This document shows positions 48,579-54,825 of a stretch of DNA of 64,000 nt, in pieces (the stretch's first letter is position 1; every line of letters starts with the position of its first letter). This DNA is from Maricaulis salignorans (lineage in GTDB: Bacteria; Pseudomonadota; Alphaproteobacteria; Caulobacterales; Aquidulcibacteraceae). Position numbers and translations under genes: made by a program. The stretch is from positions 1 to 64,000 of the forward strand of contig CAMDDL010000001.1 in NCBI GenBank assembly GCA_945891505.1. The letters run 5' to 3'. The notes below the pieces were generated by a model, which ran no database searches, was not told the origin of the DNA, and saw only the letters and a program-made list of their open reading frames with translations.

Positions 48579-49973
48579 ATGGAAACCGATTATCTGATTG
48601 TTGGGGCGGGGGCGGTTGGTCTTGCCTTTGCCGATACATTGTTGGCAGAGACTGACGCCCACATCACTATCGTTGATCGCCACGGTAAACCCGGTGGGCA
48701 TTGGAACGATGCCTATAGTTTTGTCTCCTTGCACCAGCCTTCCGCCTTTTATGGGGTGAATTCGCTGCCGCTTGGCCATGATCGCATCGATGAAACGGGG
48801 GTTAATCAAGGTCTTTATGAGCTTGCGTCGGGCCCTGAAGTCAGTGGCTATTTTGAGAAGGTGATGAACCAGCGCCTGTTGGCGAGCGGTCGTGTCCAGT
48901 ATTTTCCCATGTCGAATTACAAAGGGGACGGCCGGTTTGTATCCTTGTTGTCGGGCAAGGAAACCCAAGTTCATATCCGCAAGAAGACTGTCGATGCCAC
49001 CTATTTCGGGACCACGGTTCCTTCGACCCACAAGCCGCAATTTGATGTTGAGCCCGGCGTTGATTTTGTGCCGCTCAACGAGTTGCCGCACCTGTGGAAG
49101 CGCAGCCAAAGGATGCCAAAGCATTTTGTGATCGTTGGCGCTGGCAAGACCGCGATGGACGCCGCCTGCTGGCTGTTGGCTTCCGGTGCTGACCCTGACT
49201 CCATCAGTTGGATCATGCCGCGCGATTCTTGGCTGCTCAATCGCCTGAAGACTCAACCCGGTATCGACTTTTTTGAGGAAACGCTCGCGGGCCAAGCCGA
49301 CATGATGGAAGCTTGTGCGTTGGCGACCGATGTCGACGATTTGTTCGACCGCTTGGAAGCATGCGGTGTCATGCTGCGGATTGATCCAAGTGTCCGTCCG
49401 ACAATTCACCGCTATGCCACCGTCTCGACCGGTGAGGTGGCGCAGCTGGCCCGCATCAAGCATGTGATCCGCAAAGGCCGAGTTACCTCGATTAGCCCGA
49501 CCTCGGTTGTACTTGAGGGCGGGCAGGAGACGTTTGGCGAAGGAACCCTCTTCATCGACTGCTCCGCCAGTGCGGTGGAGGATCGCCCCGCTGTGCCCGT
49601 TTTCCAAGGCGATTTGATTGTGCCGCAAATGATCCGCCTTCCTCAGCCCGCATTCAGCGCGGCGCTGACCGCCTATGTTGAGGCCAATTACGAAGATGAT
49701 ACCACCAAGAATGGCCTATGTGGATCAATTCCCTTGCCGCGCACCTTGGAACTGTATCCCCGGGCGGTGCTGGGCAATATGATGAACCAATTGGCGTGGA
49801 GCCAAGACCCCAAACTGCGTGAATGGATTCGTGAGTCGCGTTTGGATGGGTTTGGCAAAGTCATTGCCGCTGTTGATCCAACCGACATGTCGAAAGTGGC
49901 GATCTTGAAGAAGTTCCGCAGCTTTGCCATGCCAGCGGCTGCCAACCTCACCAAATTGATCCCGCCATCTTGA
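48579..49973 (+). CDS. FAD/NAD(P)-binding oxidoreductase
   Basis: Flavoprotein of 464 aa. It starts METDYLIVGAGAVGLAFAD (FAD GxGxxG), has the characteristic GGHWNDAYSFVSLHQPSAFYG stretch split here by one residue from the usual form, and a second Rossmann motif FVIVGAGKTAMDAACWL. The layout is that of class B flavin monooxygenases or related NAD(P)H-dependent enzymes; substrate unknown. ATG 48579 follows GGAAGG. The HMG-CoA-synthase-like gene begins 83 bp downstream on the same strand, a probable functional pair. Confidence 0.85.
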   Translation: METDYLIVGAGAVGLAFADTLLAETDAHITIVDRHGKPGGHWNDAYSFVSLHQPSAFYGVNSLPLGHDRIDETGVNQGLYELASGPEVSGYFEKVMNQRLLASGRVQYFPMSNYKGDGRFVSLLSGKETQVHIRKKTVDATYFGTTVPSTHKPQFDVEPGVDFVPLNELPHLWKRSQRMPKHFVIVGAGKTAMDAACWLLASGADPDSISWIMPRDSWLLNRLKTQPGIDFFEETLAGQADMMEACALATDVDDLFDRLEACGVMLRIDPSVRPTIHRYATVSTGEVAQLARIKHVIRKGRVTSISPTSVVLEGGQETFGEGTLFIDCSASAVEDRPAVPVFQGDLIVPQMIRLPQPAFSAALTAYVEANYEDDTTKNGLCGSIPLPRTLELYPRAVLGNMMNQLAWSQDPKLREWIRESRLDGFGKVIAAVDPTDMSKVAILKKFRSFAMPAAANLTKLIPPS

Positions 49974-50056: not shown

Positions 50057-51517
50057 ATGATTGGGATTACAGCCTTTGGAGCCTATGTGCCGCGCCTGCG
50101 CTTGCAGAAGAAAGCGATGGCTCAGACCAATGCGTGGCTCGCGCCTAATTTGATGGGTAAGGCGAAGGGTGAGCGTGCCTTTGGTAATTGGGACGAGGAT
50201 GCCATCACTTTTGCGGTGGAAGCCGCCCGCGATGCCTTAGGGCCAGACGATGATCGCTCGCACATCAAGGCACTCTATTTTGCCTCCACCACCGCCCCCT
50301 TCGCTGACCGCTTGAACGCTGGCATTGTGCAAGCGGCTTTGACGCTGGAACCCACGATCCAAGCCGCCGACATCTCGGGCACGCAGAAAGCCGGCATGAC
50401 GGCATTGGCCCAAGCCCTTTGTGTTGCTAATGGGGCACCTGAGGGTGCAAATCCTAGTCTTTTAGTGGCAGCAGGTGATCGGCGTGTGCCAAAGGCCGTC
50501 TCTGCGCAAGAATTTGACTATGGCGATGGCGGCGCGGCCATGGTGGTGGGTCGTCACAATGTGCTGGCCGAATGGGTGGGCGGGGCTGCCAGCACGGTTG
50601 ATTTCGTTGATCATTTTCGTGGGGCAGACGAGGCCTTTGATTATCAATGGGAAGAGCGCTGGATCCGCGACGAAGGCTATATGAAGATTGTGCCGCCGGT
50701 TTTGACCCGGGCTTTGGCCAGTGCGGGGCTTGAGGCCGCCGCCGTCGACCACTTCATTCTGCCCAGCACGTTTAAGGGCATAGCAGAGGGCATCGCCAAG
50801 CGCTTGGGTCTCAAGGCTGAAGCAGTATGCGATAATCTGGGTACAATCGTGGGCGAAACGGGCTGTGCCCACGCGCTTTTGATGTTGGCTGGCGTTCTGG
50901 AAAAGGCGCAAGCTGGGCAGACGATTTTGGTGGCGCAATTCGGGCAGGGCTGTGAGGCGCTGGTCTTTAAAGTGACCGACGCAATCACCCAATTCAAACC
51001 CCGTGTGGGGTTATCTGGCTGGCTCGCCTACCGGAAGGAAGAGACCAGTTATATGAAATATCTGGTCTTCAATGGCTTGGTTGAGTGGGATAAGGGCATG
51101 CGGGCGGAGAAAGATAACAAGACCGCTTTGACCACGCTGTATCGCTATAATGACGGCATTTTGGGCCTCGTTGGCGGTAAATGTCAGGTCACTGGCACAG
51201 TGCAATATCCGCGTACTCGCATTTCCGTTGCCCCGAATTCGCCCGAAGTCGACAGCCAAGAACCCTATAAATTTGCCGAACGCGCTGCAAAAGTGCTGAC
51301 CTACTCAGCGGACTATCTGACCTATTCGATGAACCCACCCAATCATTACGGCCAGATCGACTTTGAAGGCGGCGGCCGGATCTTTATGGACATCGCCGAT
51401 GTTGAGCCCGGCGAGATCGATAGCGGCACCGAGGTTCGCATGGCGTTTCGCGTCAAAGAGTGGGACGACCGACGCGGCTTTACCCGCTACTTCTGGAAAG
51501 CGGTGCCGGTACGGTGA
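50057..51517 (+). CDS. HMG-CoA synthase-like thiolase-fold protein fused to DUF35/OB domain
   Basis: Protein of 486 aa. Residues 1-330 have the thiolase fold of HMG-CoA synthases (MIGITAFGAYVPRLRL, GNWDEDAITFAVEAARDAL, GDGGAAMVVGR, LGTIVGETGCAHALLMLAGVLE). Residues about 345-486 resemble a DUF35 OB-fold domain (GKCQVTGTVQYPR, VEPGEIDSGTEVRMAFRV). At the place where the nucleophilic Cys is expected the sequence reads ISGTQKAGMTAL, so Gln appears to replace Cys, and the DUF35 zinc ribbon has lost most Cys (only GKC remains). It may thus be a decarboxylase, a carrier-type subunit or inactive. It follows the flavoprotein and is convergent with the next gene. Confidence 0.8.
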   Translation: MIGITAFGAYVPRLRLQKKAMAQTNAWLAPNLMGKAKGERAFGNWDEDAITFAVEAARDALGPDDDRSHIKALYFASTTAPFADRLNAGIVQAALTLEPTIQAADISGTQKAGMTALAQALCVANGAPEGANPSLLVAAGDRRVPKAVSAQEFDYGDGGAAMVVGRHNVLAEWVGGAASTVDFVDHFRGADEAFDYQWEERWIRDEGYMKIVPPVLTRALASAGLEAAAVDHFILPSTFKGIAEGIAKRLGLKAEAVCDNLGTIVGETGCAHALLMLAGVLEKAQAGQTILVAQFGQGCEALVFKVTDAITQFKPRVGLSGWLAYRKEETSYMKYLVFNGLVEWDKGMRAEKDNKTALTTLYRYNDGILGLVGGKCQVTGTVQYPRTRISVAPNSPEVDSQEPYKFAERAAKVLTYSADYLTYSMNPPNHYGQIDFEGGGRIFMDIADVEPGEIDSGTEVRMAFRVKEWDDRRGFTRYFWKAVPVR

Positions 51518-51523
51518 GGCGTT

Positions 51524-52090
51524 TTACTTCTTAGTCGGTGAGAAAGTTGGGATATTCTCGGTGAAGCCAAATACCACGACATCCAAAGGCATAGAACCAT
51601 AGTCGGCATTCTTGCAGCCCAGCTCCTTTGTCGCTTTTTTCCGAAGAGTCCATTGCACTTGCCAATTTGTCTTGCCGACAAGGGGGAAAATTTCATTGCC
51701 GCCGAGCCCAGGTAAAACCTCAGTTTTGAGGGCGGCTTCTGAATTGTCGCTTGGTCGATAGGACAGGAGAATCTCTTTGTCACACTGATTTGGATTGCGC
51801 CAAGACACCACGAGCCGCCGATCCGGGTTGACGAGGAATTCTTGCGGGGCTTCCTTGAGGATCTTTGTCTTCCGGCTCGTGCTTAATGAGTCGGGCAGAT
51901 AGACTTGTTCGAACTGCCCGGCGGACTTTTGACGGTCGAGCAAAAGCAGCGCCTTAGTCGTCCAATAAATGCATACAATGACAAGCCCAAGTGCGATCCA
52001 ACCAACGGTTTCACCAGGGGTTGGCAGGCGTGACTGGTCCGAGTCCACGCGCGTGATTTTTATCCTAGCCCTGAAGTCAAATTCCGGCAC
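51524..52090 (-). CDS. Hypothetical single-pass membrane protein
   Basis: Protein of 188 aa that I do not recognise. A short polar N-terminus is followed by one transmembrane helix near residues 28-50 (TVGWIALGLVIVCIYWTTKAL), then a soluble domain of mostly strand-like sequence with one Cys pair (NQCDKEI and ELGCKNADYG) that could be a periplasmic disulfide. It is convergent with the HMG-CoA-synthase-like gene (6 bp apart). No neighbours suggest a role. Codon choice looks normal for the window. Confidence 0.7.
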   Translation of the reverse strand: MPEFDFRARIKITRVDSDQSRLPTPGETVGWIALGLVIVCIYWTTKALLLLDRQKSAGQFEQVYLPDSLSTSRKTKILKEAPQEFLVNPDRRLVVSWRNPNQCDKEILLSYRPSDNSEAALKTEVLPGLGGNEIFPLVGKTNWQVQWTLRKKATKELGCKNADYGSMPLDVVVFGFTENIPTFSPTKK

Positions 52091-52289
52091 AAATTACTCC
52101 TTAAGTAGGCATAACATAGGTTTAAAGGCGGGCGCTTACAAGGCCATTTGAGTGGCGCCACAAGTGTCCCGACGAAATTTAGCACGCGGGAGAGTTTCCT
52201 TTTCGTCTGGACCCATTTTGGTTGAAACTGAGTGTCACCAAAATGGCTCGTCTAGGATTAGCGCGACATCTACACAAACGCGTGCAAAA

Positions 52290-52314
52290 GGACCGCGTGA
52301 GCCACGAGCTGCGC
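52290..52314 (+). repeat. 25-bp inverted repeat, copy 1
   Basis: GGACCGCGTGAGCCACGAGC and five further bases, a perfect reverse complement of 52985-53009. It also contributes to the local hairpin at 52307-52340. Confidence 0.85.
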
Positions 52315-52984
52315 ATGTCACCGCGTACAGATGCGCAGCTAGTGCTGCGCGCTCCATCCCCCCAACACCCATAGCCCCGCGCGGAAAACCACCGGGGGCG
52401 CACCTTGTTGCCCGAAGGCAGAGGGGCCGGGGCGCGTGGTGTGCGCCAGATAGGGTGGGCCAGATTAATGGACTGGCCCGGAATACGACGCAAACCATGC
52501 GCCCCGGCTGAAATAAGTACGCGTGCCCAAGGGAAGATCATGAGCCCTCCTCTGTGGTGACATTTCCCCCGCCTGTACATGAAGATTTCATCTTAAGCGC
52601 GTTTTGATCCAAAGGATCAAAGTTGCGCGGCAACAAAAATGAAACGATCCCGCGAGTTTTGTTTCAAGCCTATTGAAAGACTTGACCTCCGGCTTCACAC
52701 GGCAGTCGGTCTTGAGCACACCGGGCATAAGGACAGCTAATCCTTATGAAAACAAGAGGCAGCCACGTCTGCCCCGATTAACCCCGCTTACCCATCCCCA
52801 ACCGGTGTCGCCGCTGCAGCAACAACGCCCTCTCGTCGGAGATGGGCCTAGGTTATGGGAGGTTTGGTGGGTGGGGGATAAGTTTTTATCTGTGCCTTTG
52901 CCACAGCCCCCCTTAGGAGCGATGGGAGATCACAGGTTCGGGCAAGTTGCTCGCTCTCCGCTATCACTGCGGTGGAGATTACAA

Positions 52985-53009
52985 GCGCAGCTCGTGGCTC
53001 ACGCGGTCC
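52985..53009 (-). repeat. 25-bp inverted repeat, copy 2
   Basis: Perfect reverse complement of 52290-52314. It lies 2 bp beyond the trpC stop codon, so it is in the 3' end of the trp transcript. Confidence 0.85.
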
Positions 53010-53011
53010 CC

Positions 53012-53803
53012 TCAACCCACCGACAATATCCCCCGCGTTGCCGCGCAAACATCATCCTGCCGCATCAGGCTTTCGCCGATCAGGAACGCCTTGGCACCCG
53101 CCGCTTGCAACAGAGCAATGTCGGCGCGGGTGTTGATGCCGCTTTCGGCTACGAGGAGCCGCGAAGGCGGGATCATGGTCGAAAGGCGGGCGGTCGTCGA
53201 CAGATCTGTGACGAAGGTCTTGAGGTTGCGATTATTGACGCCAATCAGTTCCGCATCGAGCTTCAAGGCGCGTTCCATCTCGGCTTCGTCATGGGTCTCG
53301 ATCAGGGCATCCATGCCGTAATGCTTGGCAGCGGCAACCAGATCAGCGGCGCGTTTATCGTCCAGAGCGGCCATGATGACGAGGATCGCATCGGCACCAT
53401 AAGCGCGGCTTTCGGCGATCTGCCAAGGGTCGACCATGAAGTCCTTGCGCAGGCAGGGCAGGTTAGTGGCCGCACGCGCAGCGACCAGAAAGCTCTCATG
53501 GCCTTGGAAGCTAGGCGCATCGGTGAGGACGGAGAGGCAAGCCGCGCCGCCCTGTTCGTAAGCTTGAGCCAATTGCGCGGGTACAAAGTCTGCGCGGATC
53601 AGGCCCTTTGACGGGCTGGCCTTTTTGATCTCGGCGATCAGGGCAGGGCGGGTCTCAGCGGCCCTTTTCAGGGCGGTGGTAAAGCCACGTGGCGCGCTGT
53701 GCTCGGATGCCAAGGCCTCCAGTGCCGCGATGGATTGGAGGGGCTTACGGGCAGCCACTTCGTCGCGCTTATAGGCGATGATTTTGGAGAGGGTGTCGCT
53801 CAT
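53012..53803 (-). CDS. trpC: Indole-3-glycerol phosphate synthase
   Basis: Closes the indole ring in tryptophan synthesis, converting CdRP to indole-3-glycerol phosphate. 263 aa, monofunctional (no fused TrpF). Typical motifs are [38 protein letters not shown] and VAESGI. Its ATG overlaps the trpD stop (ATGA). The gene ends the ppiD-trpEGDC cluster; trpF, trpB and trpA are not in the window. Confidence 0.97.
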
Positions 53804-54825
53804 GATGGCGTCCGATTGGTAAAGGCGATCAGCTGATCCAGCTTGGTGAGCGCAGCTTTGGAGTCGAGACTTGCTGTGGCGCGCGCCAAAGCCTCTGTGA
53901 GGTCTGAGGTTGCAGCACTGGCCACCAGGGCTGCAGCGGCATTCAACAGCACCACGTCGCGGTAAGGGCCGGTCTCGCCCTGCAACAGCGCACGCAACGC
54001 CACGGCATTGTGCGCCGCATCGCCACCCTTGAGGGCCTCAAGCGGCGCTGTGTTAAGACCGAGGTCACCCGGATGGATCTCAAGCTCGGACAGGGTCTTG
54101 TCCTTCAGAGCTGTGACTTGCGTGGGGCCAGATAGCGACAATTCATCCAAGCCGCCGTGGCCATGGACGACCCAAGCGCTTTCACAGCCAAGGCTCAACA
54201 GGGCTTGCGCCATCGGACGGCGCTTGTCATCGGCGAAGACGCCAACCAATTGGCGCTGTGCGCCTGCCGGATTAGAAAGGGGGCCTAATAGATTGAAAAT
54301 GGTGCGGAAACCGAGTTCACGGCGGGCGGGGCCAACATGACGCATGGCGGGGTGATGGGCTTGGGCAAAGAGGAAGACGAGGCCGACTTCATCGAGGGCG
54401 GCGGCGCATTGATCAGGCGTCAGCTCTAGCTTGACACCCAAAGCCTCTAAGACGTCGGCGGCCCCTGACTTGGAGCTCATGGCGCGATTGCCATGCTTGG
54501 CGACCTTTTGCCCGCAGCCCGCCAGAACAAAGGACACAGCGGTCGAGATGTTGAGGGTGTGAGACCCATCACCACCTGTGCCACAGACATCTAGGCACGC
54601 AAGGGAAGTGTCGACCCGTGTCATGGCCCCACGCATCGCTTGCGCGCCAGAGGCGATCATGTCGCTGGTTAGGATCAGTCGCTCTAGGCCCATCAAGAAG
54701 GCCCCAATTTGAGCTTGGGTCGCTTCCCCGCTCAAGATGGCGGCAAAGGCTTGGTCCAGCATGGCCTGGGGCGGCGCGTCGCCATCGCGCAAGAGCGCCA
54801 AAGCTGGTTTGATCGCCTCACTCAC
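53800..54825 (-). CDS. trpD: Anthranilate phosphoribosyltransferase
   Basis: Transfers the phosphoribosyl group of PRPP to anthranilate. 341 aa with the PRPP-binding [36 protein letters not shown], and [19 protein letters not shown]. It overlaps trpG upstream and trpC downstream by 4 bp each, so the four trp genes are translationally coupled. Confidence 0.97.

Follow-up and report, generated by a model that had tools for sequence, protein, structure and literature searches.

A putatively non-catalytic HMG-CoA-synthase-like/DUF35 fusion protein and its genomic partnership with a thiolase

What is the role of a protein with the fold of HMG-CoA synthase (HMGCS) in which glutamine occupies the position of the nucleophile, and with which partner does it act? 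The question is raised by a gene in the window, i.e. the whole 64,000-nucleotide stretch of Maricaulis salignorans DNA analysed here, whose 486-residue product joins an HMGCS-like part to a DUF35 part (Table 1). A preliminary description had proposed that, as in polyketide enzymes, the Cys-to-Gln change turns a condensing enzyme into a decarboxylase, that the loss of zinc-ribbon cysteines points the same way, to a changed function, and that the protein may form a two-enzyme route with the flavoprotein encoded upstream. In public records, members of the family are named '3-oxoacyl-[acyl-carrier-protein] synthase III C-terminal', 'OB-fold domain-containing protein', 'hydroxymethylglutaryl-CoA synthase' or 'hypothetical protein', and such names could mislead a reader into expecting a synthase activity for which the active site is unfit.

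Table 1. Features of the fusion gene and its neighbours, in window coordinates
Feature	Position	Strand	Basis or remark
FAD/NAD(P)-binding flavoprotein	48579..49973	+	Neighbour only, outside the proposed system
HMGCS-like/DUF35 fusion gene	50057..51517	+	486 aa, ATG start; ORF and profile matches, dN/dS, model
HMG-CoA-synthase-like thiolase fold, residues 1-343 (predicted)	50057..51085	+	VIA match of model range 1-343 to 6esq_I
Thr78, aligned in place of catalytic Glu82	50288..50290	+	Alignment and accessible text of PMC6392133
Gln110, aligned in place of nucleophile Cys114	50384..50386	+	Codon CAG; phmmer and MAFFT alignments to 6esq_I
Family signature DYQWEERWIRDEGY, residues 195-208	50639..50680	+	Many invariant residues; largely invariant in 47 rows
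Pro236, aligned in place of active-site His	50762..50764	+	Alignments
Glu267, aligned in place of active-site Asn, inside GETGCAH motif	50855..50857	+	Alignments
DUF35 part, residues 368-486 (ribbon remnant and OB fold; predicted)	51158..51514	+	OB_ChsH2_C 409-465; 6esq_E 368-485
Degenerate zinc ribbon, residues 371-400	51167..51256	+	Cys pattern C-T-S-S
Small uncharacterised gene	51524..52090	-	Thiolase lies beyond it in L002 and L003; sequence beyond differs in window genome

Fold, active-site positions and zinc ribbon

Pfam recognised only the C-terminal part of the KAS III fold (E 3.1e-8), together with a sub-cut-off ChsH2/DUF35 OB fold, the OB_ChsH2_C/DUF35 model reaching E 5.9e-6 and 26.6 bits at the C-terminus against a cut-off of 27.1; a profile built from 47 family rows matched the DUF35 chain 6esq_E at E 6e-13. 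The AlphaFold2 model obtained with the same 47 rows (pLDDT 91.7, pTM 0.93) has as its best solved match 6esq_I, the HMGCS subunit of an archaeal thiolase/HMGCS/DUF35 complex (VIA Z 45.6, 1.9 A, 335 residues). PhlA and then a MucABC chain are among the closest matches that follow, in a list beside which other folds are possible for the HMGCS-like model. The first residues of the signature DYQWEERWIRDEGY fall in the stretch 181-200, modelled with a pLDDT of about 70, which is what a loop ordered by a partner might show, and the signature is a possible partner or substrate contact.

The nearest relatives, found in Aquidulcibacter, related Hyphomonadaceae and Candidatus Phycosocius, share 89-98% identity with the window protein. 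Against seven close relatives the dN/dS of the gene is 0.017-0.032, the L006 pair being saturated at silent sites; the gene is under strong purifying selection, and a decaying pseudogene was rejected on these comparisons.

The archaeal HMGCS relies on Cys114 and Glu82 as key residues, according to the accessible text of PMC6392133. In the phmmer alignment to 6esq_I, Gln110 of the window protein stands opposite Cys114, and MAFFT agrees, which upholds the earlier assignment of Gln to the nucleophile position. Read from these alignments, all four catalytic positions (Glu, Cys, His and Asn) are replaced in the window protein, the losses of Glu, His and Asn going beyond what the preliminary description had seen. 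The GETGCAHAL loop falls opposite the Asn loop of 6esq_I (GNTYSG) and was discarded as the site of the true nucleophile.

The replacements extend across the family, represented by 64 sequences: the window, 56 of the 58 genome loci (the partial L057 and L058 were dropped from residue counts) and seven plasmid loci. Position 110 holds Gln in 56, Leu in six, Ala in two and Cys in none; Thr occupies position 78 in 60 sequences and Glu in none, while position 236 is Pro in 59 and His in none. Position 267 is more variable, with Glu in 39, Asp in 19, Asn and Tyr in two each, and His and Phe in one each. Twelve further, more divergent plasmid sequences carry at position 110 Arg (three), Thr (three), Gln (two), Ala, Pro, Gly or a gap (one each), again never Cys, with His at 236 in one and Asn at 267 in two. 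As a positive control, 31 homologues from phylum genomes were aligned, 25 of them non-family and six family rows (one being the window). All 25 non-family homologues, FabH-like and HMGCS-like, among them the FabH-like protein from the window's genome, have Cys in the 110 column and His in the 236 column; Asn stands in the 267 column in 22 and one column away in the other three. All six family rows have Gln at the nucleophile column. The deepest rows of the family tree, L099 and L100, carry Ala and Leu at position 110 and both lie on long branches, and the split of the family from HMGCS/PhlA has an SH-aLRT of only 90.

These residues bear on two enzymatic readings. That the protein might be an active HMG-CoA synthase with an unusual nucleophile is suggested by its best NCBIfam matches, which are HMGCS models: the archaeal HMGCS model NF003274 gives 166.3 bits (E 9e-49) and TIGR00748 120.6 bits, values below the respective cut-offs of 244 and 353.35. 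In the scan of four family members (window, L020, L097 and L099) no model scored above its own cut-off. The window protein has the fold of the synthase and lacks both the curated score and the catalytic Cys and Glu; with all four catalytic positions changed, synthase activity is scarcely credible.

The second reading is the decarboxylase of the preliminary description. As in KSQ domains, Gln110 would replace the nucleophile and the protein would decarboxylate malonyl- or acyl-CoA alone, a proposal that fits the Gln found in the window protein and at the Cys position in 56/64 relatives, and the FabH C112Q structure 9ka5, in which the fold tolerates Gln there. KSQ decarboxylases, however, keep their His residues, and in the thiolase/HMGCS fold the enolate is stabilised by His and Asn. 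Here His is lost in 64/64 sequences, Pro236 taking its place in the window protein, and Asn in 62/64. Gln itself is swapped in 8/64 and, counting the gap, in 10/12 of the divergent sequences; its substitutes include Leu, Ala, Arg, Thr and Pro. As Gln is exchangeable and no relative examined keeps the Cys, a KSQ-like decarboxylase is improbable.

The zinc ribbon is indeed degenerate, as had been described: the window protein lacks the four-Cys ribbon of DUF35 and retains one of the four cysteines. A tree of 61 family rows, which leaves out eight near-duplicates (L015, L017, L026, L032, L034, L036, L038 and L039), shows the CCCC pattern kept in 41 rows and lost in 20. The losses amount to two changes, one in a clade of 19 rows (Aquidulcibacter/Phycosocius, the Caulobacter group, Bradyrhizobium, Pseudacidovorax and Variovorax) and one in a single Sphingomonas row, both inside Gln-bearing rows. 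Although all 20 ribbon-lost rows carry Gln, so do 33 of the 41 ribbon-intact rows (33 of the 53 Gln-bearing rows are intact), and a coupling of ribbon loss to Gln was rejected on this tree. Since the ribbon-intact rows are largely Gln rows too, the loss reads on the tree as a later, clade-specific event that does not mark the loss of the nucleophile, contrary to the argument that it points the same way.

Genomic partners of the fusion gene

The flavoprotein gene lies on the same strand, 83 bp from the HMGCS-like gene, and its product has no specific family model (best NCBIfam match 21 of 425 bits). It adjoins the HMGCS-like gene in 8/59 loci, namely the window and seven close relatives (Aquidulcibacter, Phycosocius and kin). 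Within the order sample, 32/150 genomes encode the flavoprotein and nine of these also the HMGCS-like gene (6.0 expected), seven of the nine being the window's genome and its congeners. Outside the window's genus the two overlap in 2/142 genomes (21 and 24 carriers; 3.5 expected), G020 and G144, where they lie on different contigs of draft assemblies, and congener G018 has the flavoprotein without the HMGCS-like gene. On the co-occurrence counts and G018, the flavoprotein was rejected as a partner outside the genus; it is a local neighbour without wider association, and a two-enzyme route with it, for which the adjacency in close relatives would speak, is very improbable. What stands of the changed function suggested earlier is that the original synthase active site has been lost; the decarboxylase, the ribbon argument and the flavoprotein pairing do not stand.

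A two-gene partnership does exist, as the preliminary description had supposed, but its second member is a thiolase. A thiolase gene follows downstream on the same strand in 52/58 loci, less than 100 bp away in 41; in one of the 52 (L038) the contig ends after the first 91 residues of the thiolase. Of the six loci that lack it, five offer no more than 1,406 bp of downstream sequence; the sixth is L011, in which no thiolase was found within 8 kb of the HMGCS-like gene in the locus itself, as is also the case in the window. The first genome scan favours close relatives, because its patterns were taken from the window protein. Among plasmids, 19 of 48 listed places were fetched, picked for spread, and a thiolase with 27-75% identity to the query thiolase adjoins the gene in all 19. 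Next to the most divergent members the thiolase shares no more than 27-47% identity with the query, and it may or may not belong to the one thiolase family there.

Co-occurrence across genomes follows the same pairing. The order sample has the HMGCS-like gene in 28/150 genomes (weakest accepted E 4e-114) and the thiolase in the same 28 (weakest 2e-162); in the phylum sample both are found in an identical set of 10/398. Together, 33 different genomes have both genes, five of them in both samples, and no sampled genome carries one gene alone at the thresholds used; in G104 and G336 each gene is present twice. The distances of the two proteins correlate (r 0.94, n=52, the L038 row being 91 residues long), a value that comes with no background set and is not evidence for contact. 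Neighbourhood and shared occurrence establish a functional link; they are no proof of contact.

The thiolase retains its own catalytic residues, with Cys88, His294 and His344 kept in 60/60 sequences, and the same three never vary among 22 sequences, haloarchaeal ones included, that partly overlap with this set. The three thiolases that were scanned all exceed the PRK06157 cut-off, and the query thiolase matches 6esq_A at E 1e-51 as against only E 5e-18 for PhlC.

Some loci depart from the usual arrangement. In the haloarchaeal plasmids L114, L115 and L116 the thiolase is the upstream gene and overlaps by four bases a ribbon-bearing HMGCS-like gene with Thr at the nucleophile position, and the pair on a Haloferax gibbonsii plasmid adjoins phenylacetate catabolism genes. 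In two Caulobacteraceae loci (L008:1837-2232 and L009:9458-9853) a PIN-domain gene, VapC-like by eye and oppositely oriented, intervenes between the HMGCS-like gene and the thiolase.

In the window's own genome the two genes are separated. The HMGCS-like gene occurs once, with a FabH-like gene on contig 9 as the one further match at E 0.01, and it comes after gatC, gatA and the flavoprotein gene, all read in the same direction. The thiolase gene sits on a different contig (G000:C13:6908-8098), between hydrolase-like and GST-like genes; it is 98% identical to that of L002 and keeps the neighbours that flank the thiolase in L002 and L006. No obvious catabolic operon was seen around either gene in this genome. 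The window (51524-54000) and L011 (9476-11030) have a rearrangement in common: after the small gene, trp genes replace the thiolase-side neighbourhood. G012 likewise has the two genes on different contigs, well inside both.

In congener G018, neither the HMGCS-like gene nor the thiolase was found anywhere in the genome at the thresholds used. Two separate positions are empty in this congener (L101, G018:C15:24000-36000), with gatC-gatA-flavoprotein, the small gene (weak, partial matches) and the GST gene in place, and the hydrolase gene that precedes the thiolase also missing.

Operon company, known assemblies and proposed role

Most annotated plasmids surround the pair with genes for acyl-CoA ligases or CoA transferases, acyl-CoA dehydrogenases, enoyl-CoA hydratases or MaoC dehydratases and SDR dehydrogenases, and on Variovorax and Rhodococcus plasmids aromatic-ring dioxygenases are also nearby. 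The exceptions are L105 and L107, whose records are unannotated there, and Priestia, with a non-ribosomal peptide synthetase (NRPS) setting; no such catabolic genes were found near the pair on the Natrononativus plasmid. Such gene company is reminiscent of beta-oxidation acting on bulky acids and points to the cleavage of 3-oxoacyl-CoAs; since the operons differ enough, the substrate may vary across loci. Two deltaproteobacterial loci (L044:8001-10727 and L049:7998-10724) encode a 908-aa fusion of HMGCS-like, DUF35, SDR and SCP2 sterol-carrier domains, followed by the thiolase. The Priestia megaterium plasmid (L113:4992-7770) has an unfused HMGCS-like/thiolase/zinc-ribbon trio beside the NRPS, with Gly at the nucleophile position, which is probably a Phl/Muc-type acyltransferase.

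The closest analogues are acyltransferase assemblies. PhlABC, the Friedel-Crafts C-acyltransferase known as PpATase in Pseudomonas protegens and CsATase in Chromobacterium sphagni, resembles the window system in its nucleophile-less HMGCS-like part, its DUF35 and its active-Cys thiolase. The accessible parts of PMC6392133 and PMC12955522 describe PhlA as devoid of the nucleophile (Gly115) and of the Glu (Cys83), the thiolase subunit PhlC as holding the active Cys88, the substrate as contacted by PhlC residues only, and activity as requiring the whole operon. PhlA and PhlB are, however, products of separate genes where the window family has one protein; PhlA has Gly at the dead site where the family mostly has Gln; PhlABC transfers acyl groups in antibiotic synthesis, whereas the family occurs in catabolic operons; and the family's thiolase is of the PRK06157 kind (in the three members scanned), which PhlC matches only at E 5e-18. 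A further multi-component acyltransferase, MucABC, is known here from PDB titles, and 9vbo_A is taken to be its MucA (Streptococcus macacae, 9vbo/9vbt). This HMGCS-like chain has Glu instead of Cys aligned at the site, belongs to an unfused system and is 21% identical to the window protein. The gene content of PhlABC/MucABC-type systems, with a nucleophile-less HMGCS-like part, a DUF35 and an active-Cys thiolase encoded together, is also that of the family, the genes lying on different contigs in the window genome.

The archaeal complex, which provides the best structural match (6esq_I), has the same three folds as the window system. In the sections of PMC12329534 available, DUF35 binds both folds and the CoA site is common to them. 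The archaeal HMGCS is active (Cys114, Glu82), whereas in the window protein the catalytic residues are all replaced and the DUF35 is fused to the HMGCS-like part. DUF35-held catabolic enzymes of the thiolase fold, in this respect like the window system, are also represented by BbsAB (benzoylsuccinyl-CoA thiolase) and by the steroid aldolases Ltp2-ChsH2 and Sal-Shy; Shy has a Cys3His1 ribbon, i.e. ribbon variation as in the window family. In contrast to the window system, the same portions of PMC12329534 describe no HMGCS-like subunit for these three, and the DUF35 of the steroid aldolases is attached to a hydratase.

The window protein is probably a non-catalytic HMGCS-DUF35 partner subunit of a dedicated thiolase, in a two-gene complex like the archaeal thiolase/HMGCS/DUF35 complex and PhlABC that serves beta-oxidation-like catabolism. 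By analogy with these assemblies, the fusion would do the work of both PhlA and PhlB as a single chain, and its DUF35 would bridge the HMGCS-like and thiolase folds in an assembly built like the two models. The dead synthase part would support this assembly and shape the shared CoA/acyl cavity, while Cys88 of the thiolase would perform the chemistry. Judged from the operon company of relatives, the reaction may be the CoA-dependent cleavage of bulky, branched or ring-derived 3-oxoacyl-CoAs.

The strongest rival holds that the fusion protein works as an enzyme in its own right, the old pocket having acquired a new active site in which, for example, Glu267, His272 and Asp105 provide acid-base catalysis on a CoA substrate then cleaved by the thiolase. 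Asp105 is invariant and His272 present in at least 90% of the 47 family rows, the DYQWEERW signature is largely invariant, and the HMGCS of the archaeal complex is a true second enzyme in the accessible text of PMC6392133. Of the 12 more divergent sequences, nine have Asp105 but only four have His272; the eight that lack His272 all still adjoin a thiolase, and position 267 varies as given above. A new activity of this kind is unlikely.

The reading as a non-catalytic partner subunit can be extended, tentatively and with considerable doubt, to a large class of two-component catabolic enzymes spanning Proteobacteria, actinobacteria and haloarchaea. The dead HMGCS domain would there be kept as a second acyl-CoA docking site, presenting the CoA substrate through a DUF35-lined cavity to the thiolase Cys, and the pair might carry out C-C cleavage or acyl transfer beyond the reach of an ordinary thiolase.

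Separate parts of the picture were already known in 2010, when PMC2954200, in the portion consulted, reported DUF35 fused to thiolase-superfamily, SDR and SCP2 domains and located beside thiolases, and PhlA as inactive. In the literature searched, a scope outside which most subscription journals lie, no description was found of a fused Cys-less HMGCS-DUF35 family, of its constant thiolase partner or of its catabolic setting. The family raises the question of why a catalytically complete thiolase keeps a dead condensing domain as its constant partner, a puzzle that PhlA poses in one antibiotic pathway. Among the collected loci the dead site varies naturally between Gln, Leu, Ala, Arg, Thr and Pro, and the zinc ribbon is present in some and absent from others, in a widespread arrangement whose probable use is the breakdown of unusual carbon compounds.
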